A stretch of DNA of 64,000 nt from Acidobacteriota bacterium (GTDB lineage Bacteria; Acidobacteriota; Holophagae; Acanthopleuribacterales; Acanthopleuribacteraceae): assembly GCA_020439745.1 (NCBI GenBank), contig JAGQSC010000015.1, positions 1 through 64,000 on the forward strand, given 5' to 3'. The position numbers and the translations under genes were made by a program. Below the pieces are notes generated by a model. It was not told where the DNA came from, did not search any database, and saw only the letters and a program-made list of their open reading frames with translations. Within the stretch, counting starts at the first letter, position 1. Every line of letters starts with the position of its first letter. Positions 29,290-53,810 of this stretch are shown here, piece after piece.

Positions 29290-30161
29290 GACTGACCTCT
29301 TTCAATGACCAACTGCGCAATCCTTCTTATTTCAATCGATGCAGGTGCATCGGGATGAGCGATGACAAAAGGAACACCTCGATCACAACAACCTACCATG
29401 CGAGGGTCAAACGGTACATCACCAAGTTGCTCCAGATCAATGGGGTCAACTGTTCCTGAATCAAACAATGGCAATAGCCGGTTTGTTTCGGGATCGTAGT
29501 ATTGACGCATGTTGGTCACCAATCCGAAAGTCTCCTGACCCAGATGGTCGCGCACTAAGCGGATCGATTTACCTACGATAAGCTGCGATACTTCGGACCC
29601 TAGACCAACCACTACTGCTCCCGACAAGGGCCCAACGGTGTCGCAAACGGCGGTTATCCGGTCACCCCCGGGCGGTAGGTCCAAAACAAGCACATCCAGG
29701 CGCCCCCAATGTGTATCGGAAAGCATCTCGCGCAATGCATTTGCTTCAACCATGCCACGCCATGCGTGTTGATGGGACTGCGGGCCACGCCAAATCAGCG
29801 GCTGTGCCTCATCGGGCATGAAGAAATCCATACTCATCAATCGGATCCCATGGGGGCTGGTCGCCGGCTCCACGCCTTGTTCGGACTCTTGAATGCGATA
29901 CCCGCGTACACCCAACAGCTTTGCCATGCACGAACCATTCAAGTCCGCGTCCAACACACCTACGTTCAATCCCATTCTCTGCCAGGCCGCAGCAAAATTA
30001 GCGGTCAACGTGCTTTTACCGACACCACCTTTACCGCTCAGCACCGCAATCACCCGTTTGATTTGGCGTAACCGGCTTGACAGACGGTCGGTGAGCGCTT
30101 CGACTTGGCCAGCGATATTTGAACCCCCATCACCGACCAAGTCCTTGTATTTGCGTGTCAT
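29286..30161 (-). CDS. Mrp/NBP35-like P-loop ATPase lacking the CxxC motif
   Basis: Cytoplasmic MinD/Mrp-type ATPase. Seen: deviant Walker A SGKGGVGKST, DADLNGSC, DLPPGGDR and the late region GLVTNMRQYYDPETNR, where Fe-S carrier Mrp proteins normally have a CxxC-bearing segment. That pair is absent, so Fe-S cluster transfer is doubtful. 291 residues. ATG 30161 overlaps the preceding stop (TAATG). The downstream zinc-ribbon protein may supply the cysteines in trans. Alternative: a MinD/ParA-like positioning ATPase. Confidence 0.75.
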   Translation of the reverse strand: MTRKYKDLVGDGGSNIAGQVEALTDRLSSRLRQIKRVIAVLSGKGGVGKSTLTANFAAAWQRMGLNVGVLDADLNGSCMAKLLGVRGYRIQESEQGVEPATSPHGIRLMSMDFFMPDEAQPLIWRGPQSHQHAWRGMVEANALREMLSDTHWGRLDVLVLDLPPGGDRITAVCDTVGPLSGAVVVGLGSEVSQLIVGKSIRLVRDHLGQETFGLVTNMRQYYDPETNRLLPLFDSGTVDPIDLEQLGDVPFDPRMVGCCDRGVPFVIAHPDAPASIEIRRIAQLVIERGQS

Positions 30162-30613
30162 TAAATGTAGTTCGGCAACACACCCAAACAAATACCCACG
30201 GTCAAACCATAGGCAATGTGTGAAATCACGTGTGCAGCCATGTCGCCAGGCTCGAGTTTCTTGAATTCATCGATGGGATGGTATTGCGCGACTGTAATTA
30301 CCAGAAACAAAGTGACAACCAACCCGTGAACCAGGCCCATGAGCGTGCAAGCAACTACGATCACCATCATGCTGCCGGCCGCATCGGGTGCGGTGGAAAG
30401 AAGGAACGAATACACATAGGCGAAAAGCACACCGCCAGCCGTATGAATAATGGTGCCGGGTAACAGCGCATTGTCGACGCGTTTCGTAATCGCTGAGCCA
30501 ATGGCACGAATCATCTCTGTCTCGGGCAAATGGAGAAAACGCGCTCTTCGCAAGAAAAAACTCATGACGACAACGCCGGCAATTCCGGCAATCAATGGAT
30601 AGATATCAGACAT
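30161..30613 (-). CDS. Four-helix membrane protein of unknown function
   Basis: Not recognised. Seen: 150 residues with four hydrophobic segments (residues about 4-20, 55-75, 83-108 and 128-147) and short charged loops, including PIDEFKKLEPGDMAAHVISHIAYG. First gene of the operon with the Mrp-like ATPase, sharing TAATG with it. ATG 30613 has GGAGG 4 bases upstream. A transporter or membrane anchor for the ATPase is possible, but nothing in the sequence proves it. Confidence 0.65.
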   Translation of the reverse strand: MSDIYPLIAGIAGVVVMSFFLRRARFLHLPETEMIRAIGSAITKRVDNALLPGTIIHTAGGVLFAYVYSFLLSTAPDAAGSMMVIVVACTLMGLVHGLVVTLFLVITVAQYHPIDEFKKLEPGDMAAHVISHIAYGLTVGICLGVLPNYI

Positions 30614-32507: not shown

Positions 32508-33800
32508 CTACTTACGCAGAAAGGAGGGTGCACCACCAAATCGAGCACCCATTCGCTCGCGGATCTCGTGCATCATTTCCACTGTGATCATGGTCTTCCC
32601 GTGATCCGCAGCATAACGCTCCACGCGTTGTACCACCATGCCCCTGACAAAGGAAGGGATGCGTTCAAGACGCTCTTTTGCAGCGGGTGTCCAATAAATG
32701 TTGGACTCACTGGGCTTGCCGTAAGTGACAAATGGGGCAGGTACGGCAGCACCACCCGGTTCATAGACGCACCAGGGATCCTCCGCCATCAATCCCGATC
32801 CTGCACCGAATGCCCGAGCACGGCAGCCGCCGCAAACTTCAGCGAACTCACATTGTCCACATCGACCTCCGAGATTAGAACGGTCGCGAATTTCATTGAA
32901 CAAAGTCGATCCATGCCAAATCTCTGAAAATGACTGCTGACGCAAGTTACCGCCATATTCTGGCAAATACGGACAAGGTGTGACATCGCCATTGGGGCGA
33001 ATGCCGCAGTAATGCGTGCCGGCGGGGCAGCCACCCGCTCCGGCTGTAAAAGCCTTGCTTTGTACGGATTCCGGCTCACGCTGATGAAGGACTCTCTGAT
33101 AGTGAGGCGCACACTTTGAATTCACCATCATGCGCCCAAGAAACGACTTCTGCATGTCGTACAGGCGTTGCAAAACAGTCTCGTACGCTTCAGGTTCAAT
33201 ATCCGTGACGAATTGACCTCGCCCAGTCGCGACAAGAAAGTACAGGTTAAAAACCCGAGCGCCTAGCTCACATGCCATTTCTGCCAATTGTTCAAGTTGG
33301 TGAATATTGTCTCGATGTACGGTTGTCTGAACAATGAATGGCAGTCCACGTGCGGCCAGCAAGCGGGCACCATTGACCGTGTTGTCAAATGCGCCGCGAA
33401 CACGCCTAAACCGGTCATGCACGTCTGCATCCAGAGAATCTAGCGACAAGCTCAAACCCCTTATACCCGCTGATTCAGCTCGATCTAAAAGCGCATCGCT
33501 GATCAACACGCCGTTGGTCCCAACCACCACCCACAAGCCTTTGTTGCTGGCGTATCCAGCAATTTCAAACACGTCTGGGCGAAGGAACGGCTCACCACCC
33601 GTAAGGATTAAGAGCGCCTGCGGATTCACGGTAAGGATGCTGTCCACGACACCAAAGCATTCCTCGGTACTCAATTCTCCAGCCAACTCATCGCGGTGGC
33701 GAATGGGACCCGATTCCAAGTAGCAATGTTCGCAAGCCAAGTTGCAGCGTTTGGTAATATTCCAGGAAATTACGTGCGACTGATAGGCCGTCAACGTCAT
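32508..33800 (-). CDS. Radical SAM/SPASM haem-type enzyme with C-terminal PCP_red domain
   Basis: Seen: radical-SAM cluster C-N-L-A-C-E-H-C at residues 19-26, then ILTGGEPFLRPD; a SPASM-type Cys region (YCGIRPNGDVTPCPYLPE, GGRCGQCEFAEVCGGCRA, DPWCVYEPG) that matches the AhbD/NirJ-like branch; and a C-terminal PCP_red domain (YWTPAAKERLERIPSFVRG) at about residues 372-425. AhbD-type enzymes decarboxylate Fe-coproporphyrin to haem; NirJ acts in haem d1 synthesis. Directly downstream of HemY/CgoX with a TAATG overlap, so a haem-forming role is likely. ATG 33800. The exact reaction is inference. Confidence 0.82.
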   Translation of the reverse strand: MTLTAYQSHVISWNITKRCNLACEHCYLESGPIRHRDELAGELSTEECFGVVDSILTVNPQALLILTGGEPFLRPDVFEIAGYASNKGLWVVVGTNGVLISDALLDRAESAGIRGLSLSLDSLDADVHDRFRRVRGAFDNTVNGARLLAARGLPFIVQTTVHRDNIHQLEQLAEMACELGARVFNLYFLVATGRGQFVTDIEPEAYETVLQRLYDMQKSFLGRMMVNSKCAPHYQRVLHQREPESVQSKAFTAGAGGCPAGTHYCGIRPNGDVTPCPYLPEYGGNLRQQSFSEIWHGSTLFNEIRDRSNLGGRCGQCEFAEVCGGCRARAFGAGSGLMAEDPWCVYEPGGAAVPAPFVTYGKPSESNIYWTPAAKERLERIPSFVRGMVVQRVERYAADHGKTMITVEMMHEIRERMGARFGGAPSFLRK

Positions 33801-35188
33801 TAGGATGCCTCGTGCAAAGATCCCTGCCGTTCGCGGATCTGCGATATGACCGATCGAGCCCGGGCGACACAATCTGGAATGCCCACACATCCAACAGAAC
33901 TGCCAGTTAGATACAATCCCGGCAAACGCGCGACTTCCCTGTTAATCTGAACCAGACGGCCACTGAATCCAACCTCGAACTGAGGCATGGCACGGTCAAA
34001 CTTGAACACCACTGAATCAATAGGCTTGCCTGAAACAAGACCCAGTCGGCTAAGCCCATCATGGGCTGACCTAGCTAACTCAGAATCCTTGTGTGGACCA
34101 CTGTGACTGAGGAATGAACGTATGGAGAACAGGTCTCTTTGACATCGATCTGGGAACTTGTGGCTCATGAAATTGGCTGCGACCAGCGAAAGCCCATCTT
34201 GCCTGGGAGCAAAGAACCCAAATGAGCGTTCAGGGATACGCGTGTTCGCGCGCGGGTACAACTGAGTAACCGTGGTACACGAGGCATACTCAAGTTGATC
34301 CAAATAGGTTGATAGCGGACCGTCAATGTGTCGCAACAAATCGGCGGTCACATAAGACGGACAAGCCATGATCACGTGGTCCACAGTGGTGAAACCCTGG
34401 TTGGACCCAATTCGCCAAGCGCCTTGTTCGATCAAAACCGACGTAACTTTAGCTTGAGTACTAATCACATGAGCCGGAATCTTCGCAAGAAGCCCATCGA
34501 TTAGCGACCGCATACCCGACTTGAACCCTTGGAAAGCGCTGGCCGCATTTGAGGGGCGCTCTCGACGGAGCTCCGTAAGCCCAGTGGTAACACTACCATA
34601 TCGGGATTCAATATCGAGAAACTGAGGCATCGTATGACGCAATGAAAGGTACTCTGGATCCCCTAGGTAGAGTCCACCCATAATAGGGCCAGCCGCGCGC
34701 CGGAGGATTTCCTCTCCAAATCTGCGCCGGACAAACGAAGCCACCGTTTCGTCATGAGAGGCACCCGACCTGCGGGGTATGAGACGCTCTCGCTGAGCAC
34801 GCCACTTCGCCGCCCAACTGAATTGAGAACGGTAGAACGCGGGCCAATTGCCGGGCGACATCATAAAAAATCCTGCGGGCATTTCGTCTATGTTGTTTGC
34901 GCGCGCTACAAACAGGCGCTGGCTGCGGGGATCCAAGCCCACTAACTGATCTTCGAGTCCTAATTCCCGACATAAGGTCACAGCGGCCGGTTTACGAACC
35001 AGTAACGTATCTGGGCCACCTTCGATAAGGTGTGTGCCCTTTTGGACGGTCTTAATGACACCACCCAGCGAACCCGACGCCTCAAACACACTGACCTGAC
35101 AATCCGTCCCGAACGTGCGAATGGCATCATAGGCTGCCGTCAGGCCGGAAATCCCGCCCCCAATGATCGCTAGTCGCATTTTCTTCAT
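33800..35188 (-). CDS. hemY: HemY/CgoX-type porphyrinogen oxidase
   Basis: FAD-dependent oxidase acting on protoporphyrinogen IX or coproporphyrinogen III. Seen: N-terminal dinucleotide fold IIGGGISGLTAAYD, GGVIKTVQKGTHLIEGGPDT, LSLRHTMPQFLDIE, and a C-terminal FAD contact (GLYLTGSSVGCVGIPDCV). 462 residues, as expected. ATG 35188 is preferred; the upstream TTG has no advantage. It shares TAATG with the radical-SAM gene and follows SCO1 by 22 bases, tying haem synthesis to the oxidase operon. Sequence alone does not separate the proto- from the copro-specific activity. Confidence 0.88.
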   Translation of the reverse strand: MKKMRLAIIGGGISGLTAAYDAIRTFGTDCQVSVFEASGSLGGVIKTVQKGTHLIEGGPDTLLVRKPAAVTLCRELGLEDQLVGLDPRSQRLFVARANNIDEMPAGFFMMSPGNWPAFYRSQFSWAAKWRAQRERLIPRRSGASHDETVASFVRRRFGEEILRRAAGPIMGGLYLGDPEYLSLRHTMPQFLDIESRYGSVTTGLTELRRERPSNAASAFQGFKSGMRSLIDGLLAKIPAHVISTQAKVTSVLIEQGAWRIGSNQGFTTVDHVIMACPSYVTADLLRHIDGPLSTYLDQLEYASCTTVTQLYPRANTRIPERSFGFFAPRQDGLSLVAANFMSHKFPDRCQRDLFSIRSFLSHSGPHKDSELARSAHDGLSRLGLVSGKPIDSVVFKFDRAMPQFEVGFSGRLVQINREVARLPGLYLTGSSVGCVGIPDCVARARSVISQIRERQGSLHEAS

Positions 35189-35210
35189 GACCTGAAACCC
35201 CAGTCCCAAA

Positions 35211-35738
35211 TCATAACAGCGCCTCGATATCGTTCTTCAATGCGTCCCTGTCAGAAGGTTCGGAACTCAAGTAGGTGCCACGAATGCGCTGTGAAGCGTC
35301 TACCAGTACAAACCTTTGACTGTGTGCAATAACATCGTTTGGATCACCAATCTTAAAGCCATTGACACTCAATGCCAGAACCGCCTCCTCAGACCCTGTG
35401 AGAAAGTGCCACTTGTCGGACGCTCGAAACCGCTTGGCGTATTCAGCTAGAACTTCCGGCGTGTCATAGGCAGGATTAACCGAAACACTCACAAACGCCA
35501 CCTGAGGACGGTCCAGAAACAACTGGTCCAGTTCAGACATGAATTGGGACATCGCAGGACAAGGACCTGGACACGTGGTGAATATGAAGTCAACAACCCA
35601 GATTTTCCCTTTCAAATCAGTCTTGCCAAAGGGTACCGCACGGTGGTCGGTAAACTTGAAATCAGGAACTTCTCCCAAATCGGGCAGTGCTTTCCCACAT
35701 GCCACAAGCATGCTTGCCGAGGCCAACAAGCCCACCAT
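35211..35738 (-). CDS. SCO1/SenC-family lipoprotein
   Basis: Copper chaperone for the adjacent oxidase. Seen: a lipobox L-V-A-C in the first 15 residues of the ATG-started protein, thioredoxin-like fold with copper-binding TTCPGPC and distal His in VIAHSQRFVLVD. 175 residues. ATG 35738 lies just after the subunit II stop (35744) with GAGG close upstream; the TTG at 35753 would overlap subunit II. Very similar to the SCO1 protein at 26270, suggesting duplication. Confidence 0.9.
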   Translation of the reverse strand: MVGLLASASMLVACGKALPDLGEVPDFKFTDHRAVPFGKTDLKGKIWVVDFIFTTCPGPCPAMSQFMSELDQLFLDRPQVAFVSVSVNPAYDTPEVLAEYAKRFRASDKWHFLTGSEEAVLALSVNGFKIGDPNDVIAHSQRFVLVDASQRIRGTYLSSEPSDRDALKNDIEALL

Positions 35739-35743
35739 GGACC

Positions 35744-36514
35744 TCAATCCCAAAAATCGTCCCCCTCGCCTTCCTCAGCCAAAAGTGCCGCCTGTTCATC
35801 CATCCATGCCTGATATTCAGTTGGCTCGTGCACGGTCACAAATCCTTTCATGCGGTAATGCCCCAAGCCACAGAGTTGAGCGCAGGCGATTTCGAAAGCG
35901 CCCGTCTTCACGGGCGTGAACCATACGGGAATACTCATGCCAGGGATCACATCGTGTTTGATGCGCATGTGAGGAATGCCAAACGAATGAATCACGTCCT
36001 TGGACGACAAATGGACAATGATCGGTTTGTTGTTTTCCAAATGGAGCTGGTTGATCGTGGTGATGTCATCTGCCGCCGCAGGATCATTTCGATCCAGTCC
36101 GATGGGATTGGTCTCGTTATTCACGAGATCAATCGAGGTTTTGCCAAACACGCCATCGGGACCAGGGTAATGCACGTTCCAAGCAAACTGCTCGGCAACC
36201 AAGCGAACTTCGTTGGCCTTGTCTGTGGGAAACTCATTGACGCGTTCGGCCCAAAGCGGGATGGAAAATCCAATCAAAAGCACGGCTTCAATCAATGCAA
36301 CAACCACTTCCAAGTAGGTCGAAAATTTCCCTTTAACCCCAGCATAATCCGCTGGTCCGGGCCGAGAGCCGCGGAACTTGATCAACGCAAGGATAAAAAA
36401 ACCACCCCAGAACACAAATAGCGCAAGCATCAGGTAATGAATGTAGGCTATCAAGCGATCAATATCGCCACCATGAGCGGACGCTATTTCGGTCATGCCC
36501 CAAAAGTGTTCCAT
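35744..36514 (-). CDS. ctaC: Cytochrome c oxidase subunit II (CuA)
   Basis: Accepts electrons from cytochrome c. Seen: two membrane helices (about residues 23-47 and 66-86), then the CuA domain with QFAWNVHYPG, DVIHSFGIPHMRIKHDVIPG, and the copper motif C-A-Q-L-C-G-L-G-H-Y-R-M. No fused cytochrome c. The Glu of the usual C-S-E motif is Gln here; that residue binds through its backbone, so function should be kept. ATG 36514 with AGAGGG 6 bases upstream. Unusually, subunit II follows subunits I, III and IV. Confidence 0.93.
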   Translation of the reverse strand: MEHFWGMTEIASAHGGDIDRLIAYIHYLMLALFVFWGGFFILALIKFRGSRPGPADYAGVKGKFSTYLEVVVALIEAVLLIGFSIPLWAERVNEFPTDKANEVRLVAEQFAWNVHYPGPDGVFGKTSIDLVNNETNPIGLDRNDPAAADDITTINQLHLENNKPIIVHLSSKDVIHSFGIPHMRIKHDVIPGMSIPVWFTPVKTGAFEIACAQLCGLGHYRMKGFVTVHEPTEYQAWMDEQAALLAEEGEGDDFWD

Positions 36515-36516
36515 AA

Positions 36517-36750
36517 TCAACCCTCTCTTAGAAGAAGTCCGGCCTCATGCCGCGATGCTCGGTACCAGAGCACAAATACAAAGGTAGCGATGCAACTCAG
36601 CATCATCACCACAATCACCAGCAAAAACAGGACTGCCATACTCATACCTTGCACCTGAGGTGAATTCGCATTTCCATAGCACACAGAACACGCCATCGCA
36701 GGTAGCTGACACACCAACGCAAACAGTCCAAGCAACTTAATCCGCTTCAC
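36517..36750 (-). CDS. Small membrane protein in oxidase operon, SVCYG motif
   Basis: 77 residues. Seen: a signal-like N-terminus ending PAMA, then CSVCYGNANSPQVQGM and one membrane helix (VLFLLVIVVMMLSCIATFVFVL). The C-x2-C followed by a helix could hold a metal or disulfide at the outer membrane face. GTG 36750 is chosen because GGAGGG lies 6 bases upstream and it makes the signal region N-terminal; it overlaps the preceding stop (GTGA). Probable oxidase accessory protein; not named. Confidence 0.65.
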   Translation of the reverse strand: MKRIKLLGLFALVCQLPAMACSVCYGNANSPQVQGMSMAVLFLLVIVVMMLSCIATFVFVLWYRASRHEAGLLLREG

Positions 36751-36946: not shown

Positions 36947-37246
36947 CTAGATCCTAATCTCGTCCAGCGAATGACCGACCGGCAAGAACATCAGTCCGAC
37001 AAAGAATATGGCTGCCAAAATCAAGGTGTAATAAATGAGCTTTTTTTCGGAAATCAAGTGCATGAAATAGGCCGCCACCAAGGATGCTTTTATGGCCGCA
37101 ATGACGATGGCAACCGCTATGTTCACTCCGTGCCCCATATCGATGTAACTGACGCCAATCGTGACACCGGTCAGAACCAACAACGCTACAAAGACGCCTA
37201 TATAAACACGAACATGTTTCTTGATGTCTTCTACTGACTCACCCAT
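36947..37246 (-). CDS. Cytochrome c oxidase subunit IV family protein
   Basis: Prokaryotic COX4-type small subunit. Seen: 99 residues, three membrane helices, and the family core IAAIKASLVAAYFMHL followed by a charged turn and a third helix. The same core (LVAAIKASLVVLYFMHG) occurs in the larger fusion protein at 57874, confirming the family. Lies 10 bases after subunit III. Confidence 0.88.
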   Translation of the reverse strand: MGESVEDIKKHVRVYIGVFVALLVLTGVTIGVSYIDMGHGVNIAVAIVIAAIKASLVAAYFMHLISEKKLIYYTLILAAIFFVGLMFLPVGHSLDEIRI

Positions 37247-37255: not shown

Positions 37256-37846
37256 CTACAAGAGATAAAGCACAGGGAAAAGGAATATCCACACAAGGTC
37301 CACAAAGTGCCAATAGACACCCGCCACCTCAATGCGGTTTGTGAAGTGTTCGGGTTCTGAATGCCACATTTTGGAGCCGGGCCCCCAAAAATAGGCAAAT
37401 ACAATCATGCCACCCAATACGTGAAGACCATGTAGGCCGGTCAAAGTAAAGTAGATGGCCAAGAAAGTGCTTTCGCTTGGAAACAAACCCGTATGGAATT
37501 TGTGGTTGTATTCATAAGCCTTAACGCACATGAACACGAGCCCTAACACAAACGTCAACAACAGGTACATTCTCCCTTTTGACAAACTACCCATTTTCAA
37601 CGAGGCCCAAGCCATAATCACCGTGACTGACGAACTAATCAGGACAACCGTGTTAAAGGCAGCTACGGGAACTGAGAGAATTTCATGGCCTTTGGGCCAT
37701 ACATCGGCGTTCACACGAAGCAGAATGTATGAAGAGAACAGGGCGCCAAACAACATCACTTCAGAGGCAAGGAATAACCAAATCCCCAATTTGGCGTTGT
37801 TGAGTCCAGTGTCTGGTCGCGCTTCAACAGTGAAAGGAATTTGCAT
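37256..37846 (-). CDS. ctaE: Cytochrome c oxidase subunit III
   Basis: Seen: the start of the core LGIWLFLASEVMLFGALFSSYI, LTGLHGLHVLGGMIVF with the family His, and the C-terminal signature VAGVYWHFVDLVWIFLFPVLYLL. 196 residues, five helices, the short bacterial form. Separated by 3 bases from subunit I. Stabilises subunit I and assists proton uptake. Confidence 0.93.
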   Translation of the reverse strand: MQIPFTVEARPDTGLNNAKLGIWLFLASEVMLFGALFSSYILLRVNADVWPKGHEILSVPVAAFNTVVLISSSVTVIMAWASLKMGSLSKGRMYLLLTFVLGLVFMCVKAYEYNHKFHTGLFPSESTFLAIYFTLTGLHGLHVLGGMIVFAYFWGPGSKMWHSEPEHFTNRIEVAGVYWHFVDLVWIFLFPVLYLL

Positions 37847-37849: not shown

Positions 37850-39589
37850 TCACGCCTCCGCTTCAAATTGAGGGCTGTAGTCCTTTTCCGCACCAGGAAC
37901 GCTGTACTCATACGGTCCGCGGTAGACTTTTGGAATGGCGTCAAAATTGCCATGTGGGGGCGGCGAAGGCGCTGCCCACTCCAACGTGGTGGCATGCCAA
38001 GGGTTGTCGTCCACTTTTTTGCCCTTCTTAATAGAAACAAAGAAGTTAATGATAAACGGCAACTGGAACACCGCCAGGGCAAAGGCTGCATGAGACATCA
38101 TGGTGTTGTAGTGAATCACTGGTTCAGCGAAATCGTATGAGGCCCCACCATCGTAAAGACGGCGAGAAACACCCATCAGTCCCTGTATCAGCATGGGAAA
38201 GAAGATGAAGTTCATACACACAATCGAACCCCAAAAATGGACCTTTCCCCAAAGCTCGCTCATCACGCGTCCTGTCACCTTAGGAAACCAATAGTAAATG
38301 CCTGCAAACAGTGCCAGGATCGTGCCGGGCGCAACCACGTAGTGAAAGTGTCCAATCACGTAGTAGGTGTCGTGAAGAGGTATGTCGGACGCCGACAGAC
38401 CTAACGGAAGCCCTGTCAGGCCGCCGATGCCAAACATGGGTAAGAACCCCAAAGCAAAGAGCATAGACGTATTAAATCGGATCCTTCCACCCCACAGTGA
38501 GATGAAAAACACCGTCAAAATAATCACCGACGGAATGGAAATGATCATGGTTGTGGTCTGGAAAAACGCACTGATGGTGGTACCCATACCCGTGAGGAAC
38601 ATATGGTGTGCCCACACAATGAAAGACATGAAACCGAGGAATATCACGGCGTATACCAGAGACTTGTAACCAAAGAGTGGTTTTCGGGTGTTATTGGCAA
38701 TAATTTCACCAACGATACCCATCGCGGGCAGTATCAAAACATATACTTCCGGATGGGCTAAAAACCAGAACAGGTGCTGCCACAATAGCGGGCTGCCCCC
38801 GCCACTCACCTGCAACACATCACCGGTTACCACCAGTCCTGAAGGCAGGAAAAACGACGTGCCAGCCAAACGATCCATCAGCTGTAGAACGCCAGCCGCT
38901 TCCAAAGGCGGGAATGCAAGCAGTAGCAGGAATGCGGTTACCAATTGTGCCCAAACGAAAAAGGGCAATCGCATGTAAGACAATCCCTCAGCGCGCAATT
39001 GAATGATCGTCACAATGAAGTTCACCGAACCCAGTAACGATGACGTGATGAGAAACACCATGCCAATCAGCCAGAAGGTCTGTCCGGTGGTAGCGATATC
39101 CGATAATGGTGGGTAAGATGTCCAGCCAGAGTTGGCCGCGCCTCCAGGGGCTGTGAAGCTATACAACATCACGACGCCGCCTGCAAAGAAACACCAGTAG
39201 CTAGCCATGTTCAGTTTCGGGAACGCCATGTCGGGTGCACCAATTTGGAGCGGAACGACAAAATTGCCGAAGGCGCCAACAGCTAAAGGCACCACGCCCA
39301 AGAACACCATAATCGTCCCATGCATGGCGCCCAGACTGTTGTAAAACTCGGGCAACATCACACCGCCTGGCATGGTTGCGTCCGAAAACAATCCCCCAAT
39401 CACAGGAATCGGTTGCCCCGGGTACGCTAGTTGCCAGCGCATCAATAACATCAAGCAGAATCCAAAGAACAGGAAGACGAGCGCCGTGAGGCCATATTGG
39501 ATGCCAATGGTCTTATGATCGGTTGAGAATATATAAGTTCGCCAGAAGCCCTGTTGGTGATGGGCCTCGTGATGGTCCGCTGCACTCAT
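37850..39589 (-). CDS. ctaD: Cytochrome c oxidase subunit I, A1-type
   Basis: Catalytic haem-copper subunit reducing oxygen to water with proton pumping. Seen: 579 residues with about 12 helices; haem a ligand HGTIM; active-site WFLAHPEVYVLILP with the CuB His, D-channel Glu and cross-linked Tyr; HHMF; DTYYVIGHFHYV. The Glu in HPEVY indicates the A1 class, unlike the second oxidase at 55640. C-terminal ATTLEWAAPSPPPHGNFD is typical. Followed tightly by subunits III, IV and II. Confidence 0.95.
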   Translation of the reverse strand: MSAADHHEAHHQQGFWRTYIFSTDHKTIGIQYGLTALVFLFFGFCLMLLMRWQLAYPGQPIPVIGGLFSDATMPGGVMLPEFYNSLGAMHGTIMVFLGVVPLAVGAFGNFVVPLQIGAPDMAFPKLNMASYWCFFAGGVVMLYSFTAPGGAANSGWTSYPPLSDIATTGQTFWLIGMVFLITSSLLGSVNFIVTIIQLRAEGLSYMRLPFFVWAQLVTAFLLLLAFPPLEAAGVLQLMDRLAGTSFFLPSGLVVTGDVLQVSGGGSPLLWQHLFWFLAHPEVYVLILPAMGIVGEIIANNTRKPLFGYKSLVYAVIFLGFMSFIVWAHHMFLTGMGTTISAFFQTTTMIISIPSVIILTVFFISLWGGRIRFNTSMLFALGFLPMFGIGGLTGLPLGLSASDIPLHDTYYVIGHFHYVVAPGTILALFAGIYYWFPKVTGRVMSELWGKVHFWGSIVCMNFIFFPMLIQGLMGVSRRLYDGGASYDFAEPVIHYNTMMSHAAFALAVFQLPFIINFFVSIKKGKKVDDNPWHATTLEWAAPSPPPHGNFDAIPKVYRGPYEYSVPGAEKDYSPQFEAEA

Positions 39590-39613: not shown

Positions 39614-40312
39614 CTATTTCGAAGGCATAGAGAAACTGAAGTCGAGCGACTTGGATTCGTCCTGACCGATGGTGACCGACTGGGTTTGCGTCCCGAGCTT
39701 CTCGTGCCAGACTTCCACCTCATAAGTACCAGCATCCAGACCCGAAATGGTGTACTTACCGTCTTCGCCAGTTACGGCAAAAAACGGGTGACTGGATACG
39801 CCGATATAACTTTTCATCCAAGGGTGAACATTGCATTTCACTTCGATCATCAGCTCTTCACGAGAAAACTTCTGCATCGACTCACGCATCGAAGTAGGCA
39901 TACCGAGATTGAAACCGCGATTGACCGTGGCTTTCACATTCACGTTGTGAAGCGTATCGTCTGAGTTTACGAACTTGAAGTCTTGATCTACCATCACTCC
40001 AACGACATGAGGACTGTACATACACCCCTTTTGGTCCATCTCCGCAGGCTCGCTGGGTGTGGGCCATTTCTTATCAGGAAGACCCTTTGAAATACGGACA
40101 AAAATGTGTGCCATGGTGTTTCCCTCGCCCAAAACAAGCGTTTCTGCGCGAGCCATTTCCCCACCACTGTATGCGGCCGAGCAAACGGGATCAGCATCCA
40201 TCTTCAAAGGCTTCATCTTGGGCGCATTACCGTCCCACTTGACCACACCTGTGATTTCTCCTGCTAAAGATGTGATGGATAGAAAAACCAATAAAAAAGC
40301 TGTCAGCTTCAT
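39614..40312 (-). CDS. Cupredoxin-like exported copper protein
   Basis: Likely periplasmic electron carrier or copper donor in front of subunit I. Seen: a signal peptide (MKLTAFLLVFLSITSLAG), a plastocyanin-like domain with candidate copper ligands His in DTLHNVNV and C-N-V-H-P-W-M, then HPFFAVTGEDGKYTISGLDAGTYEVEVWH, a carboxypeptidase-regulatory-like beta module. The second ATG (40312) has AGGGG 6 bases upstream and is preferred. First gene of the A1 oxidase operon. Confidence 0.8.
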   Translation of the reverse strand: MKLTAFLLVFLSITSLAGEITGVVKWDGNAPKMKPLKMDADPVCSAAYSGGEMARAETLVLGEGNTMAHIFVRISKGLPDKKWPTPSEPAEMDQKGCMYSPHVVGVMVDQDFKFVNSDDTLHNVNVKATVNRGFNLGMPTSMRESMQKFSREELMIEVKCNVHPWMKSYIGVSSHPFFAVTGEDGKYTISGLDAGTYEVEVWHEKLGTQTQSVTIGQDESKSLDFSFSMPSK

Positions 40313-40400
40313 AGACATCCCCTAAGGTTGTATTTCAAAGAGAGGTGTTGGTGGACAACCCCCAATTGACGATTAAATTGTGTGCGATTTCGCGACCCCC

Positions 40401-40465: not shown

Positions 40466-40954
40466 TCATTGAATGGCATATACCAACCGCTCGTTCTGAA
40501 AATAATAGATCGCTGTAGGTGGATTCTGCTCTGTGGCCCCCCACAAATTAACGGGTTCATCGCGATACACCCAACACTCGATGGGGCCATGTGGGTTGTC
40601 TGTGACATATCGCTCATCGGCACGAGGGCGTATGCACAGGAACACTTGAAGCGTCATACCTATCTGGATGGTCCCATTCTCAATCTGACGCCACTGCTGA
40701 TCGGTAAAATCGTATTTTCCATGGGGATCCTCGCGAAATGCATAGTCGTCACCAAAATCAGCCTTCAGATAGTATTTGCGGTGATCATCCAAGACCACGC
40801 GAACTTCTTTCATGATCAATTCGCGTGCCTTCACGACGGTCATTTTCTGACCAAATGGCAATCCATAACCCACAGCCATTCCGTGCCCGACCCAAATGGC
40901 ATCGCCCGGTTGTATCCCCGTCGAGCATATGAGGGTTAAGGCCAGCCATTTCAT
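40466..40954 (-). CDS. Exported protein of unknown function in bd-like cluster
   Basis: Not recognised. Seen: 162 residues with a signal-like N-terminus (MKWLALTLICSTGIQPGDA), then a compact beta-rich body containing VRVVLDDHRKYYLKADFGD and many aromatic residues. No haem or copper motif: the only Cys residues are in the signal region and in FLCIRPR and PIECWVYRD. Overlaps the dihaem gene by 4 bases, making it the last gene of the bd-like cluster; it may be an accessory of that complex. Confidence 0.6.
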   Translation of the reverse strand: MKWLALTLICSTGIQPGDAIWVGHGMAVGYGLPFGQKMTVVKARELIMKEVRVVLDDHRKYYLKADFGDDYAFREDPHGKYDFTDQQWRQIENGTIQIGMTLQVFLCIRPRADERYVTDNPHGPIECWVYRDEPVNLWGATEQNPPTAIYYFQNERLVYAIQ

Positions 40955-42582
40955 GTGGCTGATTCCACCACTTCCGAAGGTTCTTGACGGCTTGAGTCAC
41001 GTGCGGCCCGAATGGCCCATAAAAGCAATATGGCAGTTAAGAACGCAGCACCTGCCGTTTTCACGTAGACACTCCGATCCACAGGCTGTTCCAATCGCAA
41101 AAAGAACCAGGCGGACAGATTACCCATGGCCTCTTTCTCATTGCGGTGACCGTCCCATGCCCAAAACAGGATCGGCAAGAACTTACCTACTTCGAGTTGC
41201 ACTTCATCCTCGGAATCCGTCAAAAGTGTTCGAGTCACCATGAGGTGGTAACGGCCGTTTAAGTAGTGGACTGAACCCTTCAAAGGCGTGCCATCGGACA
41301 GGGCTGAAATCTGATTGCGACCCTTGGCAAGTTCACTGCTCAGGCTGACGTTTCCTTTGTATTCTGTCCATAGGTTTGCGTGTCCAGATTGTGCTTCGGC
41401 AGGTGCCTGTTGAGACGCCAGCGAACCGTCCTGAACCCAGCGCCAAAGATTGACGGGATTAGAACCGTCGCCCATGACGATATAGGGGCGTTCATTGGGT
41501 GCGGGAAATCCACTGGGAAACTGAATGGCGAATTGATCGGCGTCTACCTGAGCTGCCGGCTCTTCATCGAAGAAATCACCAAAATCATCTTCTTCCTCTG
41601 TTTCAAAACCCCAGTCATCCTCTTCGTCGGCGCCGCCTGGTGCCTCGGCACCTGCCACACTGAACGAAGGATCGTCCCATGACACGAGCAAAGCGACTGA
41701 CGACTGATCGTGAAGTGCTTTCACCGTCACACTGCGCACACCAGGCTGATGGTTCACAGGTGCCCACATCATTTGCCCCGTCAATGGAAAATAGGCCTCA
41801 GGCGCCGAATCCCACAACGGATCGTCCATGGACTCCGGTAGCTGATCCACAATTGAGGCACTCACCTGGGCTGATGCCGTAGGCTCTTCCCCTACGGACA
41901 AACTCTGCACATAACTGGCTAATGCCCATCGGTCATCCGCAGGAATCGCATCAGCAAAGGAGGCCATCGGGGTTCCCGACAGTCCAGTCGTGAAGGCCCT
42001 GAAAATATCCGTCAACTCGTGACCGGCGCGAAACTCCCATCCGCGATTCAAATTGGCCGGCAAAATGGATTCGTCGTAGTCATCTTTCAAGGTGAGTGAC
42101 GAAGGTCCGTCGGCTCGGCCTTCGTAACCATGACAATCACCGCAGCCACTTTGCAAATAGACTTCACGTCCATGAGTGATTAATGCATCCGTGACCTTGG
42201 GAGGGTTCCCCATTTCCGCGACCTTGGGTGGATAAAACCCCTCCTCTTTGTCTCGATCAATCACTGCCTGGTAGTAACCCTGGATATGTGCCACGACCGC
42301 CTTAATTTCAGATTCTCCAAGTTGAGCAAAGGAGGGCATTGACGTTCCGCGGATACCTTCACGTACCACCTTCTCCAAGTCTGACTCAAGCGGAAGTTGA
42401 CCCGATTGAGTACTGCGAAATTTGAACACGCCTGTCGTGAAATTTCTTGGACGAGGCATGACGAATTCAGTGGCAATGCCTTGGCCATCTCCCTGTTCGC
42501 CATGACACTGGGCACAGTATTTATCGTAAGTCGTAGCACCGAGATCGGACTGAAGCATGAAGAAAAACAGGATCGCGCTCAT
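40951..42582 (-). CDS. Dihaem cytochrome c fused to EB_dh-type haem-binding domain
   Basis: Exported, membrane-anchored electron-transfer protein. Seen: a short hydrophobic N-terminus, cytochrome c domain 1 with C-A-Q-C-H (residues 23-27), domain 2 with C-G-D-C-H (147-151), then from about 240 an ethylbenzene-dehydrogenase-gamma-like domain (YFPLTGQMMWAPVNHQPGVR, VALLVSWDDPS), interrupted by an acidic Asp/Glu tract near 330-350, and a C-terminal helix (AGAAFLTAILLLWAI). EB_dh domains usually bind one b-type haem. 543 residues. Shares one base with the preceding stop (TGATG). No molybdopterin enzyme partner is present. Confidence 0.82.
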   Translation of the reverse strand: MSAILFFFMLQSDLGATTYDKYCAQCHGEQGDGQGIATEFVMPRPRNFTTGVFKFRSTQSGQLPLESDLEKVVREGIRGTSMPSFAQLGESEIKAVVAHIQGYYQAVIDRDKEEGFYPPKVAEMGNPPKVTDALITHGREVYLQSGCGDCHGYEGRADGPSSLTLKDDYDESILPANLNRGWEFRAGHELTDIFRAFTTGLSGTPMASFADAIPADDRWALASYVQSLSVGEEPTASAQVSASIVDQLPESMDDPLWDSAPEAYFPLTGQMMWAPVNHQPGVRSVTVKALHDQSSVALLVSWDDPSFSVAGAEAPGGADEEDDWGFETEEEDDFGDFFDEEPAAQVDADQFAIQFPSGFPAPNERPYIVMGDGSNPVNLWRWVQDGSLASQQAPAEAQSGHANLWTEYKGNVSLSSELAKGRNQISALSDGTPLKGSVHYLNGRYHLMVTRTLLTDSEDEVQLEVGKFLPILFWAWDGHRNEKEAMGNLSAWFFLRLEQPVDRSVYVKTAGAAFLTAILLLWAIRAARDSSRQEPSEVVESAT

Positions 42583-43352
42583 CAGTGTCCCTCCCCTACG
42601 CTACTCTGGCTTCGTGGCTCTTTCCCAATGGCGTCATACAGATACATAATCACCGACCAGATCTCGTCTTCACTCAAGCGGCCTTCCCATGCCGGCATCG
42701 CTGAGTTCCAAGGGGTTGCTTCACGAGGGAGCCCTGGCCCACCTTTAGCTATTCGCCAAAACACATAGGATTCCGTGAGAATGGCGAGTGTTTCATCCCC
42801 AGTAAACTTTGCGGGTTTGGGCACAAATCCCCTTGCAAAATGACCATCACCTGCCCACGTATCGCCATGGCAATAAAAACAGTGTTGGTAGTAAACGCGT
42901 TTACCCACAGCCACGTGGGACTCGTATTGGGCGGCATCCGCTCGCAAGGGATTGGCCTGAGTGATCATGCTAATGGTTTTGCCATTGAAACTTATGGATT
43001 CTGGGTTGGCTGGATGGACGGTTCGGAAAGGGGGCGGGGCCTGTGTGCTCGGTTTCACACCCATGTACGTGCGGTACCCAACAAACAGAGGAATTGCAAT
43101 AAGGGCCACCAGCCGCACGGTTCGGTGCGTGGGGGTCAATCCCAAGAGCGTCTCGTAAATCGGTCGCTTGAATTCAGACCAAACATCATTACTGGAAGCC
43201 ATATACAAGAACACCACGCCCAAAGTGATTCCCATATACTGGGTGACCAGAGAGGAAGGTATGGGCTTGCTCAAAACAGCGATTCCGTAGGTATAAAAGA
43301 TATAGGCACCTACCATCAATAAGAACGCCTGGAACAACGGGTTGCGGATCAC
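42582..43352 (-). CDS. Membrane-bound monohaem cytochrome c
   Basis: Seen: three hydrophobic segments in the first 100 residues (FLLMVGAYIFYTYGIAVL, GITLGVVFLYMAS, LVALIAIPLFVGYRTYMG), then a class I cytochrome c domain with C-F-Y-C-H and the late axial Met region NSAMPAWEGRLSEDEIWSVIMYL. 256 residues, GTG start overlapping the CydA-like stop (GTGA). Resembles cytochrome c subunits of quinol-oxidising complexes; here it probably relays electrons from the CydA-like protein. Confidence 0.85.
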   Translation of the reverse strand: MIRNPLFQAFLLMVGAYIFYTYGIAVLSKPIPSSLVTQYMGITLGVVFLYMASSNDVWSEFKRPIYETLLGLTPTHRTVRLVALIAIPLFVGYRTYMGVKPSTQAPPPFRTVHPANPESISFNGKTISMITQANPLRADAAQYESHVAVGKRVYYQHCFYCHGDTWAGDGHFARGFVPKPAKFTGDETLAILTESYVFWRIAKGGPGLPREATPWNSAMPAWEGRLSEDEIWSVIMYLYDAIGKEPRSQSSVGEGH

Positions 43353-45883
43353 TGTGACACCTCCCCGTTCAAACTCATCATGAAAGCCATCAAGTCGTTA
43401 AACTCGCGGGCCGTCAAACTGTCACCCAAGGTGGGTGGCATGATGGGTTGGTACCCCGCAACGACCACCTTGGTCGGTTCAAGGATGGACTCTTTGATGT
43501 AGTCCGCCGTATTGATTCTGGCTATCTCTGTCAATTCAGGGCCTATCCCGGCTGGGGATCCCTCACCGCCCACCATGTGGCAGGTGAAACAGATACCTTT
43601 GCCAAAGAAGATTTCCCTGCCTTTGGCCGGATCGCCAAAGGTCAACGCAGGGCCGGCATCAGCAGCGGCGGATTCCGCCTGGGCGGGTACATCATCCTTC
43701 GTAATCGTAATATCCCCGGAAAGACTCTCCAGATACGCGGCTACCACAAATAATTCTTGAGCCGAGAGTGAAATGGGAGGACGGTTAACTGCTGGCATGA
43801 TATTGCCGTAGCCCTCCACGATATAAGCACCAGGATCAACCATCGACTCAATGATGTATTGCGAAGTGGTCAAATCGGGCTTGTGCTGTGAGGCCAATTT
43901 CCCGACAGGCTTTAAGTCTGGCGCGCGCGGGCCCGCTTCGCCAATGCCGTGACATAACGCACAAGTTCCTTTACCGTAAAACACCTGCTCACCCAATGCG
44001 ACAACCTCAGCCTTGTCCATGCTGAACACGTCTTGATCCGCAGAGAGCTCCATCGGTGGCCGATGTTCCACTTGAGGGATACGATTGGCAAAAATAACGA
44101 ACCCGAATATGACGGCCAGGCCAAACACGGTGACCTTGGAAAACACCAGGAGACCCTTCCACCCACGTCCCTTAGGTCCATCCGCTTTCTTGCTCCCAAG
44201 GCTACCCAGCCACATGACAAAACTGGTCATCAACAGGAAGATGATCACTGAAGCAGAAATCTTAAAACTGGCCTGCCCCAAGGTTGGCAAAAACGCGTCT
44301 GGCGATGTGTCTCGCATAACCCCATACACGTGCCAATGTTGGCGCAAGGCCGAACGGGCGTAACCCATCAGGCCCATCAACCAACAAAAAGTGATGGCAA
44401 GGAGAAATAGGGCATATTGGGCACGAGCCGGGATGGTGCCCCAACGAATGCGTCCCACAATCTTGGCATTCTTGAACAGGGCAATATCCATGCTTGTAAA
44501 CACCACAATGGCCAACAAAACTGCCAGCACCTGTTTGGGTGCATATCCGATGCGTGTCGCTGCATCGACGAAATAGCCTTTGACACCCAGATAAATCACA
44601 AAGGTTGCCGCTAATCCAAGCACAAACCATTGAGCGGTCATGCCTTTGACACGCCAGGGAACTGTGGCCTCTTTGTTGCCGCGTCGGTAAAGCATGAAAC
44701 TGAGAAACGTCGTGAGGATCATCAGGTTCACAGCTGTGTTCTTTGCCGACATTACACCCAAAACGCCCAGTAAAGGGTGGTGCGTACCGCCCATCTTGCG
44801 GGCCTCCTCCAGAGACGCCACCAGCGAATGAGGTGTCGCCCAAACCAAGACACAAACCAACAAAACGATTAGCAGATACTTGATGTACTTTTTGTAGCGC
44901 TCGGCGCCCTCAATGCGTTCCATTCCCACCCACAAATAGAAGTTTGCGGATAGGAACAAAATGCCGATCATGATGGCTTGGATGATCCAAAGCCACGACA
45001 AGAATCCACCCATCAAGGTGATGCCCATCTGTTGGTTATGATCGTAAATTTCCTTGCCCAGCCAGTATCCCGCGAACGGCAACACGAGGAACACACTGAC
45101 CGCCACGAAATTGCCAATGTAGCCCATCCAGTCGTAGTACGCTCGCTGTTCATCGGTTTCGGCCGTCAAGAAGCGGAACCCTGCATAAGCACCAGCAATG
45201 GCCCCACCGAATACCGCGTTGGCAATCAGTCGGTGAATGTTCAACGGCTGCCAGGTGGCATTATTGATGGCTTCCCAAACACTGATCACAGATCCGGTAT
45301 CCATGTCGATGCCATTGGGTGTCATCATGAAAGTGGCCCATGCATTCGTCAGAACGACCAGCGCTGTTCCGAACACATTCAGGAGAATCCCCAACATCAA
45401 ATGCCACTTCTTTTTGTTGCCGCTTAGCCAATCCCAGCCGTACCAATAAAGATACAAGGTGAATGACTCAGCAAAGAAAAGTACGGGATAAATCCACATG
45501 GTGGGCGCAAACACGCCACTCATGTAATTCCAAAACGAGGGGTACAACGTGATCAACAAGAAGAGCAAGATGGCCCCTAATGTGGCGGTCGCTGAGAATG
45601 CGATCAGCGATAATTTAATGAATTCCTTAGCCAGCTTGTCGAATTTCTCGTCTTTGGTCAGCATCCCGATGTATTCGATGAGGATGGCAAACATAGGCAC
45701 GCCGAGAATAAACGCGGCGAACATCAGTTTCACCTGAGCTACAATCCACACGATATTTCGAGACGACATGCCCCCAAATTGGCGGTACGGCGGTATATCG
45801 CCTACGCCGTCGGCCATGGACCAACCGGCCACTAACAAAAGTCCCAAGACGACCCAAAAGCGTCTCCAATTGATCTTATTCAC
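43349..45883 (-). CDS. CydA-like membrane protein fused to two cytochrome c domains
   Basis: 844 residues. Seen: a signal-like N-terminus, then a CydA homologue of about 9-10 helices (FFAESFTLYLYWYGWDWL; VLTNAWATFMMTPNG; NIHRLIANAVFGG; IIQAIMIG), a linking helix near 580-600, and two class I cytochrome c domains with C-A-L-C-H (641-645) and C-F-T-C-H (765-769). By hand alignment to E. coli CydA: His186 is kept (His217), Met393 is kept (Met305), but His19 is Lys52, Glu99 is Tyr132, and the GRQPW/Glu445 region is changed to TRIGY. There is no Q loop. It may not reduce oxygen. GTG 45883 is chosen because GGGAGG lies 7 bases upstream. Confidence 0.85.
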   Translation of the reverse strand: MNKINWRRFWVVLGLLLVAGWSMADGVGDIPPYRQFGGMSSRNIVWIVAQVKLMFAAFILGVPMFAILIEYIGMLTKDEKFDKLAKEFIKLSLIAFSATATLGAILLFLLITLYPSFWNYMSGVFAPTMWIYPVLFFAESFTLYLYWYGWDWLSGNKKKWHLMLGILLNVFGTALVVLTNAWATFMMTPNGIDMDTGSVISVWEAINNATWQPLNIHRLIANAVFGGAIAGAYAGFRFLTAETDEQRAYYDWMGYIGNFVAVSVFLVLPFAGYWLGKEIYDHNQQMGITLMGGFLSWLWIIQAIMIGILFLSANFYLWVGMERIEGAERYKKYIKYLLIVLLVCVLVWATPHSLVASLEEARKMGGTHHPLLGVLGVMSAKNTAVNLMILTTFLSFMLYRRGNKEATVPWRVKGMTAQWFVLGLAATFVIYLGVKGYFVDAATRIGYAPKQVLAVLLAIVVFTSMDIALFKNAKIVGRIRWGTIPARAQYALFLLAITFCWLMGLMGYARSALRQHWHVYGVMRDTSPDAFLPTLGQASFKISASVIIFLLMTSFVMWLGSLGSKKADGPKGRGWKGLLVFSKVTVFGLAVIFGFVIFANRIPQVEHRPPMELSADQDVFSMDKAEVVALGEQVFYGKGTCALCHGIGEAGPRAPDLKPVGKLASQHKPDLTTSQYIIESMVDPGAYIVEGYGNIMPAVNRPPISLSAQELFVVAAYLESLSGDITITKDDVPAQAESAAADAGPALTFGDPAKGREIFFGKGICFTCHMVGGEGSPAGIGPELTEIARINTADYIKESILEPTKVVVAGYQPIMPPTLGDSLTAREFNDLMAFMMSLNGEVSQ

Positions 45884-45920
45884 GAGCGCGCCTCCCATAG
45901 AGTCATTGGCTTTCGGTCTA

Positions 45921-47957
45921 TCAGTTCTTGGACTCACCCTGTCGCGAGTACTCGAGCATCTGGCGCATGAACCCGATCTCGTTAATGGCTTCCTCGCTCT
46001 TGGATTTCTGTTCGGCAAGACCCTGAACGTGGAATGGGCACACTCCTTCTTTGGCTGCTTGTTCAGGTGTGGCCTGATCGATCATTCCAGCCTGGCGCAA
46101 CAGGTCGTTCATCATGTCGCGACCCCGCGCAAGACCTTCCTCCACACTGGCCATATTGATGCTTTCCAGTCCCTGCTCCTGGGCGACCTGCTCGACACGT
46201 TGCTGTGTCCGGTCACGCATAAATCCCGAAGGAACCCTTAAGATACGAGCCAATGCGTCTTCATCCCATTGCCAGTTAGAGTGAAGCGGCACACCTTCAG
46301 CATCTGTCCCGACGATTTGACCTTGCGAACGAGAATCTGACACCTCAACGACAGACTGCTCAATCATCAGGTCCCCAAGTTCCTCTTCAATGATTTGGCG
46401 CGCAAATTCCAAAGTAATAGCCGACAAACGGTTCATACGTGCTGATTTCTCGATGCGCGCCTTGGCTCTGCGCCGTTTGTAGGCATCGGTAATGTCTTTC
46501 AACGACAGACGAGCTTCGCGGGTCCAAACCAGTTTGCGCCCATCATAGGACGTCTCTTCTTCCAATCCCCCTTCAGAAGCCGCGATCTCCTTCACGCGGT
46601 CCTGAGATATCTTTTCAAAATTCTGAGAACCGCAAACGGCACATGACTTGGGATCGGCATGTTTGGCAGTTACGCCGCAGTCCATACAAATGGCCACGTG
46701 TTGATTGCGTTCTGCATGCGCCACAGCCAACTGTTCAGCCAATGATTCGGTGGCGTGTGCCGTGTATCGGGGCATGAAACGGTCCATGGCCGCGTCGATC
46801 ACCTTATTCGTGATCACGCTGTGGCCCTCTTCCATGGCGAGGCGCAGAATCCCGGTGCGTGCGATGCCGCGCACCAGACTGGGTACGCGTTCCATGCGTT
46901 CTTTGGCCTCATCGGTCCAGCGAATGCTCTCTTCAGCCTTCAGATCTAGCTTGGGTACCACCACGCGGGTGCTCAACAACAGATCGCATGGACACAAACG
47001 CAGCAGGTTTTCAGTGGTGTTGCCCATACCGCTTTCTTCATCTGAGCTATGCACGCCCACGCGTCCTATCACCAACAGCCATGGATCGATTTGGCGCACA
47101 TGGTTGACAATTTTCTGGAATGCCTTCCCGTCGAGTAGGGTCTTGGTAACCTCAACACCCTGTTCGCGAGCAACCACTTCTGCCACGTTCAAATGGGATT
47201 GATAGATCTGCGCCAAGCCCGTGTCGATGATCTCTTCGTGTAATTGGTTCTGCTCCTCAAAACGGAAAACCTTCTTTGCTTGGTCAGAAAGGATATCCAC
47301 GATGCCATTAAACACTGCGTAATGGAGGTATGGGTCATAGACGGAAATCAGTTCTATTTTCTTATCGAAGCGCCGGGCCAAATCGATCGCAGTCATCAAA
47401 CCACCAAATGAGTGGGGGCTGCCATCAATGGCCACAAGGATGGGCCCTGTGCCCTCAGCTTCCTTTTCGTGGCGCTTGATTACCCACACATCGCGATTGA
47501 CGTTTCGCGCCACCTGCGCACAGACGCTGCCTAACTGGCTATCGCGCGATTGGCCAATGCCCTGAGCCCCCAAAACTACAAGATCGTATTCTGTGGATGT
47601 CAGGTCTTTGATGATTTCGACGTAGTGCTTGCCATCCATCATGCGTCGAGTAAAGGGAATACCTTCATCGCGACACTGTTGGTCCATTTGATCCAGGTAA
47701 CTATCTGAAATGAGCTCCAATCCCATCGTGATCAAGCTGTCGTGTATCTTGCGCTGGCGCTCGATCTCGCCTTCTTGGAGGTATTCATCGGGAAGCGTGT
47801 ATTCCATCTGCTTGAAACGGTAATCGTGCATGCGGGCCGCATAAACGTGAGTGCCGGTCACTGCACCTTGGCAAGATGCCGCCACTTGCAACGCGCGTTT
47901 CGCTGCGCGGTTAGAATAGGCGGAATTATCCACAGGCACATAAATATGTTTGTACAT
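45921..47957 (-). CDS. Tandem UspA protein with three PCP_red-like domains and a zinc ribbon
   Basis: 678 residues. Seen: UspA domain 1 (about 1-165; VPVDNSAYSNRAAKRALQ, LVVLGAQGIG), UspA domain 2 (about 172-330; ILVAIDGSPHSFGG, LLVIGRVG), PCP_red-like 1 (346-395; RWTDEAKERMERVPSLVRG), a zinc ribbon C-M-D-C...C-A-V-C (424-442), PCP_red-like 2 (477-527, divergent), PCP_red-like 3 (562-616; WDEDALARILRVPSGFMRD) and a coiled tail. PCP_red was defined in protochlorophyllide reductase subunits and recurs in respiratory loci. First gene of the bd-like cluster; ATG 47957 has GAGGAG 8 bases upstream. Function unknown: sensing or assembly. Confidence 0.8.
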   Translation of the reverse strand: MYKHIYVPVDNSAYSNRAAKRALQVAASCQGAVTGTHVYAARMHDYRFKQMEYTLPDEYLQEGEIERQRKIHDSLITMGLELISDSYLDQMDQQCRDEGIPFTRRMMDGKHYVEIIKDLTSTEYDLVVLGAQGIGQSRDSQLGSVCAQVARNVNRDVWVIKRHEKEAEGTGPILVAIDGSPHSFGGLMTAIDLARRFDKKIELISVYDPYLHYAVFNGIVDILSDQAKKVFRFEEQNQLHEEIIDTGLAQIYQSHLNVAEVVAREQGVEVTKTLLDGKAFQKIVNHVRQIDPWLLVIGRVGVHSSDEESGMGNTTENLLRLCPCDLLLSTRVVVPKLDLKAEESIRWTDEAKERMERVPSLVRGIARTGILRLAMEEGHSVITNKVIDAAMDRFMPRYTAHATESLAEQLAVAHAERNQHVAICMDCGVTAKHADPKSCAVCGSQNFEKISQDRVKEIAASEGGLEEETSYDGRKLVWTREARLSLKDITDAYKRRRAKARIEKSARMNRLSAITLEFARQIIEEELGDLMIEQSVVEVSDSRSQGQIVGTDAEGVPLHSNWQWDEDALARILRVPSGFMRDRTQQRVEQVAQEQGLESINMASVEEGLARGRDMMNDLLRQAGMIDQATPEQAAKEGVCPFHVQGLAEQKSKSEEAINEIGFMRQMLEYSRQGESKN

Positions 47958-48049
47958 ACACGATACTCCTCTGCCCTGTACCGCGGAGAACCAAGCGCAT
48001 TCCACGCGGCTCAAGCTAAATAAAAAATAGGTGGCTTTTCTTATCACCT

Positions 48050-53659: not shown

Positions 53660-53780
53660 AGACCACACGCGAAGGCGCCAGCGCGCAAAGTACAGCCTTG
53701 CGGTGCCAACTTTGAAGCTGCATGTCTTCGTTTGACAACCTCTGCCGTCTCAAAAAAATCTGCTCGGGGTGCGAAACTCG

Positions 53781-53810
53781 TTGAAACCGACCCACCATAG
53801 CGAGTATGAT
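53781..53810 (+). promoter_or_regulatory. Promoter of the caa3-type oxidase operon
   Basis: TTGAAA, 18-base spacer, TATGAT, with a predicted start near 53817 and a leader of about 78 bases. This places the SCO1 start at 53895, because an earlier ATG (53769) would lie upstream of the promoter. Confidence 0.55.

Follow-up and report, generated by a model that had tools for sequence, protein, structure and literature searches.

The window, a stretch of 64,000 nucleotides of contig JAGQSC010000015.1 from an Acidobacteriota bacterium of the family Acanthopleuribacteraceae, carries on its minus strand a run of respiratory genes built around a bd-like membrane protein. An earlier note on this DNA described a CydA-like protein fused to two cytochromes c, a description borne out by Pfam (Cyt_bd_oxida_I with E 1.8e-20 over residues 50-564, plus two Cytochrom_C stretches) and by the CXXCH motifs of two homologous c domains at residues 646 and 770. 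The open reading frame is intact and encodes 849 aa on the minus strand from an ATG at 45898; the frame given in that note, 43349-45883, begins at a GTG located 5 aa downstream, so that its Lys52 is the Lys57 of the numbering used here. In what follows, A1 denotes the core bd-like subunits orthologous to this protein (the query) and A2 an OR-N1-like paralogue.

43349..45898 (-): bd-like A1 protein with dihaem c tail (the query), from Pfam, homologues and model
44174..45763 (-): bd-like membrane core, residues 46-575, with 13 predicted membrane helices, 4 of them in the place of the Q-loop
45728..45730 (-): Lys57, codon AAA, aligned with E. coli CydA His19 (haem d ligand)
45488..45490 (-): Tyr137, at the Glu99 position, Tyr throughout A1 and A2
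45233..45235 (-): His222, equivalent of the b558 ligand His186, invariant
45011..45013 (-): Met296, invariant in A1 and A2
44969..44971 (-): Met310, altered along with Lys57 in a four-member clade
44330..44344 (-): RQHWH (519-523), counterpart of GRQPW, His523 invariant
43949..43963 (-): haem c site 1, CALCH (646-650)
43577..43591 (-): haem c site 2, CFTCH (770-774)
45921..48047 (-): protein with a double UspA domain and two PCP_red domains, inherited together with A1
42582..43352 (-): membrane-anchored monohaem cytochrome c (CFYCH), conserved core member
40951..42582 (-): dihaem c and EB_dh protein (type II DMSO reductase gamma / NxrC-like haem b), conserved core
40466..40954 (-): 162-aa protein without Pfam match
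39614..40318 (-): periplasmic CarboxypepD_reg protein, recurring beside A1 and cox genes
37850..39589 (-): aa3-type cytochrome c oxidase subunit I, from domain searches
37256..37846 (-): oxidase subunit III
36947..37246 (-): small membrane protein in the place of subunit IV, named from its position and from relatives in kin loci
35744..36520 (-): oxidase subunit II with intact CuA motif CAQLCGLGHYRM
35211..35753 (-): SCO1/SenC copper chaperone
33800..35209 (-): protoporphyrinogen oxidase-like protein, TIGR00562 above cut-off
32508..33890 (-): NirJ2/AhbD-group radical SAM/SPASM protein ending in a PCP_red domain, inherited together with A1
29286..30191 (-): NUBPL/ApbC-like Fe-S carrier ATPase, recurring beside the UspA-PCP_red gene

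The 162-aa protein is present in all three Acanthopleuribacteraceae loci of sufficient length. Given its intact CuA motif in subunit II, the aa3 enzyme is a cytochrome c and not a quinol oxidase. A second haem-copper oxidase set lies on the plus strand at 53769-58647 of the window and comprises SCO, subunit II, COX1, COX3 and a COX4_pro/cytochrome c fusion; its subunit II is fused to haem c, with CoxB above cut-off. As already pointed out in the earlier note, nothing in the window matches E. coli CydB; a canonical CydA with an adjoining CydB is encoded elsewhere in the genome. A plasmid search gave distant partial matches only.

Fold, haem ligands and the lysine variant

An AlphaFold model of the query finds strong PDB matches solely among the CydA chains of bd oxidases. 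In this model, four helices (residues 300-442) occupy the position of the quinol-binding Q-loop, in agreement with the reported absence of this loop. Helix alignment past residue 289 is weak. The fused protein of Acidobacteriota MO_135.B14 (L006 / L055) carries around query residue 409 some 50 extra residues, which resemble one or two additional membrane segments.

In E. coli CydA, His19 ligates haem d, Glu445 haem b595 and the pair His186/Met393 haem b558, whereas Glu99 faces haem d (PMC8585947, PMC6853902). Among these canonical haem ligands, the only certain survivor in the query is the equivalent of His186 (H222), which the alignment retains together with Glu107 (E144, the Glu139 of the earlier note); an equivalent of Arg448 is present as well. 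Other readings of the ligand positions needed revision. The change of Glu99 to tyrosine is real, but as Tyr is found in all A1 and A2 proteins it is not peculiar to the query. The segment replacing GRQPW had been read as TRIGY, with alanine in place of Glu445; profile-profile alignment instead pairs W..GRQPW with W506...LRQHWH after a 6-residue insertion (local E 1.2e-5). The loss of Glu445 stands, but it is family-wide, and the column corresponds to a family-invariant Leu510, with a certainty lowered by the adjoining insertion. Likewise, of the two b558 ligands said to be kept, the histidine holds and the methionine (Met305, here Met310) was rejected as a ligand of the family, since 60 of 64 orthologues have Leu at this position and Met is restricted to the four-member clade. 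Met296, on the other hand, is invariant in 75/75 aligned sequences and is the sole nearby methionine constant in both A1 and A2, from which we infer that it is the best candidate for the sixth ligand of the low-spin haem b.

Further positions set A1 apart: Glu365, Met369, His374, Met383 and His523 are invariant in A1, and all but His523 are missing from A2. Residues 365-383 and 521-523, which map to ~44750-44806 and ~44330-44344 of the window and presumably face the periplasmic side, might form a metal or haem site peculiar to A1.

The replacement of His19 by lysine was confirmed by the alignment and proved to be clade-specific. In this column, 59 of 63 readable A1 proteins have His, as do 11/11 A2 and 28 further Acidobacteriota; the four exceptions, each with Lys, are the four genomes of an Acanthopleuribacteraceae clade. 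Of the 58 positions invariant across 60 orthologues and 11 A2 paralogues, H57K is the only one altered by this clade; when the 119 positions invariant in the 60 other A1 proteins are considered, the clade-wide changes are H57K, L310M and S453A, and each of the four genera retains 114-115 of the 119. In a tree made by a quick method without bootstrap, the four Lys proteins form a clade (SH-aLRT 100), for which one change suffices. A sequencing error was rejected, as the codon (AAA or AAG) was seen in four genomes including a complete chromosome. The nearest relatives of the query come from a Holophagae MAG (84% identity) and from the cultured Sulfidibacter corallicola (71%), which has the lysine form. 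Synonymous sites are saturated, so that dN/dS itself is not computable; pN/pS was used instead, and its value for the query gene (0.10, versus 0.08 for the neighbouring COX1) indicates purifying selection and hence a gene that is not in decay.

The dihaem tail, modelled with low confidence in the query, matches Kustd1711, an anammox cytochrome (PDB 7zs0, E 3e-36), whose haems have potentials near +350 mV and a Ca2+ beside each of them, bound via backbone and propionate (PMC11791136). Among the proteins examined, the c-haem fusion occurs only in the four Acanthopleuribacteraceae, whereas loci outside this clade have a homologous c gene directly after A1.

Orthology, gene neighbourhood and co-inherited genes

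The family set comes from one scan of named genomes and comprises 80 loci, with A1 found in every non-Nitrospira genome tested. Nitrospira moscoviensis has both A1 and the paralogue A2, to which the query is about 52% (core) and about 33% identical, respectively. Its gene order, bd-like / c / c / EB_dh, agrees with the published Nitrospira cluster, bd-like_1 / CIII_1 / bd-like_2 / c / c / alt_nxrC_1 (PMC6606698), where the NIDE0901-like subunit has been named OR-N2 and paired with OR-N1 (PMC12342949, PMC10839748). This difference in identity, the common downstream genes and the tree show the query to be an orthologue of Nitrospira bd-like_2 (OR-N2, NIDE0901-like), the mapping of A1 on bd-like_2 being deduced from gene order. 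In keeping with the features of OR-N proteins, the query lacks a quinol site and has cytochrome c partners; a homologue search of its genome found no second bd-like subunit (OR-N1). Two Rokubacteria (G063 and G074) carry a second, more divergent A1-like gene.

A conserved core recurs across loci, made up of A1, a cytochrome c (fused or separate), the membrane cytochrome c and EB_dh. Nitrospira-type loci (n=46), defined by A2 and/or Rieske/cytochrome b genes, have COX1 in 0/46, whereas solo loci without A2 or bc genes (n=34) have COX1 or COX2 within ~10 kb in 17/34; for about half of the solo loci no cox gene is seen at this distance, which is due in part to short contigs. In the query window, the A1 run extends into the genes of the CuA-type aa3 oxidase, an adjacency that would be compatible with electron transfer to this enzyme, without being proof of it. 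The alternative complex III marker ActD occurs in 24/29 A1 genomes, including 4/4 clade members, a co-occurrence to which shared ancestry may contribute; the quinol:cytochrome c step would thus be covered in most A1 genomes. A link of the query locus to an NXR-like enzyme was not found by a search of low sensitivity, in which TIGR03479 (type II DMSO reductase) had 0 matches at E 1e-60 in the query genome and N. moscoviensis was likewise missed.

Two PCP_red proteins are closely tied to A1. In a sample of 396 Acidobacteriota genomes, the UspA-PCP_red protein was present in 36 of 37 A1 carriers and in 1 of 359 non-carriers, and radical-SAM-PCP_red orthologues (about E 1e-80 or better) in 34/37 and 0/359; ignoring relatedness, Fisher P is ~1e-49 and ~1e-46, respectively. 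The single A1 genome without UspA-PCP_red is 77% complete, and the 36 genomes with both genes span 16 families. One Acidobacteriota genome (G423) has a partial UspA-PCP_red at a contig start and no A1 match. Across phyla, UspA-PCP_red was found in 29/29 A1 genomes, N. moscoviensis among them, where it adjoins its radical-SAM partner at a distance from A1; at least in some Rokubacteria, both genes lie ~13 kb past A1 on the same contig, the radical SAM matches being partial in several of them. In several phyla, relatives of the radical SAM/SPASM-PCP_red protein, such as L061:14971-16275 and L041:15002-16249, are encoded beside the bd-like cluster or not far from it.

Among solved structures, PCP_red is matched by the C-terminal domain of protochlorophyllide reductase subunit B. 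The radical-SAM-PCP_red neighbour of the query comes closest to two haem-pathway models, scoring 341 bits against AhbD and 301 against NirJ2, below the NCBIfam cut-offs of 500, and its relatives score 352-355 against NirJ2. A tetrapyrrole role of these proteins may be considered a lead and not a finding, although their co-inheritance with A1 does open a way into the assembly and haem type of OR-N2 subunits. A bolder proposal, which we regard as distinctly doubtful, is that the two PCP_red proteins produce a modified tetrapyrrole for OR-N2 or insert it there, and that in Acanthopleuribacteraceae Lys57 holds this cofactor or a haem; were it true, the lysine-held cofactor would be a haem centre of a type new to the bd superfamily.

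Proposed function and known systems

In the lineage of Acanthopleuribacteraceae, the query is, on a modest balance of probability, a membrane-anchored electron-transfer subunit and not an oxygen reductase. A low-spin haem b near the periplasmic side, with His222 and probably Met296 as its ligands, would exchange electrons with the haem b of the EB_dh protein and with the c haems, which in turn would deliver them at high potential to the CuA centre of the adjacent aa3 oxidase. As a further step, the UspA-PCP_red and radical-SAM-PCP_red proteins might serve the assembly of the A1 subunit or its tetrapyrrole supply. This reading relies on the loss of the last oxygen-haem ligand in a constrained protein, on the missing Q-loop, on the other oxidases of the organism and on the single gene run shared with a CuA-type aa3 oxidase. 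The earlier note had also arrived at a bd-derived electron carrier in place of a quinol oxidase, which is still the best reading; its argument from ligand losses is not, because most of these absences are shared by the whole OR-N-like family, including the proposed oxidase of Nitrospira, and part of them came from misalignment.

The chief rival, which we hold to be unlikely, is that the query is still an oxygen reductase driven by cytochrome c, with a non-canonical site where Lys57, His374 or His523 ligates a high-spin haem. Its Nitrospira orthologue has indeed been proposed as a terminal oxidase, as no haem-copper oxidase was thought to be present in Nitrospira (PMC6606698, PMC12342949). Moreover, Glu99 and Glu445 are already missing family-wide, and A1 proteins have His374, His523 and Met383 without exception. 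In NrfA the proximal haem ligand is a lysine, a precedent in favour of this rival; because lysine can ligate haem, a haem might be retained by Lys57 at the His19 site. Against such an oxygen reductase weigh the loss in the clade of His19, the sole oxygen-site ligand retained by the family, the two haem-copper oxidases of the window together with a canonical CydAB in the genome, and the lack of an OR-N1 partner there.

It is quite improbable that the query interacts with quinone, either as an alternative complex III-like subunit or in reverse electron flow from cytochrome c to quinone. Something similar was proposed for the Nitrospina/anammox relative (PMC3578206), and the Nitrospira cluster does include Rieske and cytochrome b genes; yet helices stand in place of the Q-loop, Rieske and cytochrome b are missing from the solo clusters, and alternative complex III is encoded separately in most A1 genomes. 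The strict co-inheritance with a UspA-domain protein could also suggest a redox or ligand sensor acting with it outside the respiratory chain, a role that we deem very unlikely for a gene that lies in one operon with those of the c cytochromes, EB_dh and the cox subunits, and whose Nitrospira orthologue, as a respiratory gene, reaches very high transcript levels (PMC6606698). Finally, the loss of an invariant ligand might be expected of a decaying, functionless paralogue, but the positions kept in all four genera, the purifying selection and the intact partners leave this idea with hardly any credit: the pseudogene reading was rejected, and the constraint data in practice refute decay.

The electron-transfer reading bears on a wider problem, since OR-N bd-like proteins are the proposed main terminal oxidase of Nitrospira and oxygen reduction by them is at issue. 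In this regard, the Acanthopleuribacteraceae clade is a natural experiment in which the last canonical oxygen-site ligand has been swapped and the rest retained; if the protein works without His19, electron transfer would be the essential job of the subunit.

The gene combination had been thought undescribed, which is not the case of its core, because Nitrospira has it as bd-like_2 / c / c / alt_nxrC_1 (PMC6606698); the linkage to UspA/PCP_red did not turn up in a literature search dedicated to it. Neither the lysine variant, the c fusion and the PCP_red co-inheritance, nor an aa3-linked solo form across several phyla, was found in the literature searched, a scope outside which the main superfamily survey falls. 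What looks new is thus the aa3-linked form without a second bd-like subunit, together with the c fusion, the strict PCP_red co-inheritance and the lysine variant.

Compared with E. coli CydA, a quinol oxidase (qOR), the query shares the fold of the first helices and the equivalents of His186, Glu107 and Arg448, and differs by the absence of Q-loop, Glu99, Glu445 and CydB, by the exchange of His19 for Lys and by the added haem c tail. This tail is ~35% identical to Kustd1711 of the anammox nxr cluster, but fused to a membrane protein. In the nxr clusters of Nitrospina and anammox bacteria, a bd-like protein is likewise accompanied by monohaem and dihaem cytochromes c and an NxrC-like subunit, and in the Nitrospina relative the Q-loop was also described as replaced by helices (PMC3578206); these proteins are linked to nitrite oxidoreductase, a link that the insensitive NXR search did not find for the query locus. 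The closest system is Nitrospira bd-like_2, which has in common with the query, besides core identity and gene order, the helices replacing the Q-loop, the Tyr at Glu99 and an RxHWH motif, but which keeps His19, has its haem c on a separate gene and is accompanied by an OR-N1-like A2 and Rieske/cytochrome b partners, with no cox genes nearby.
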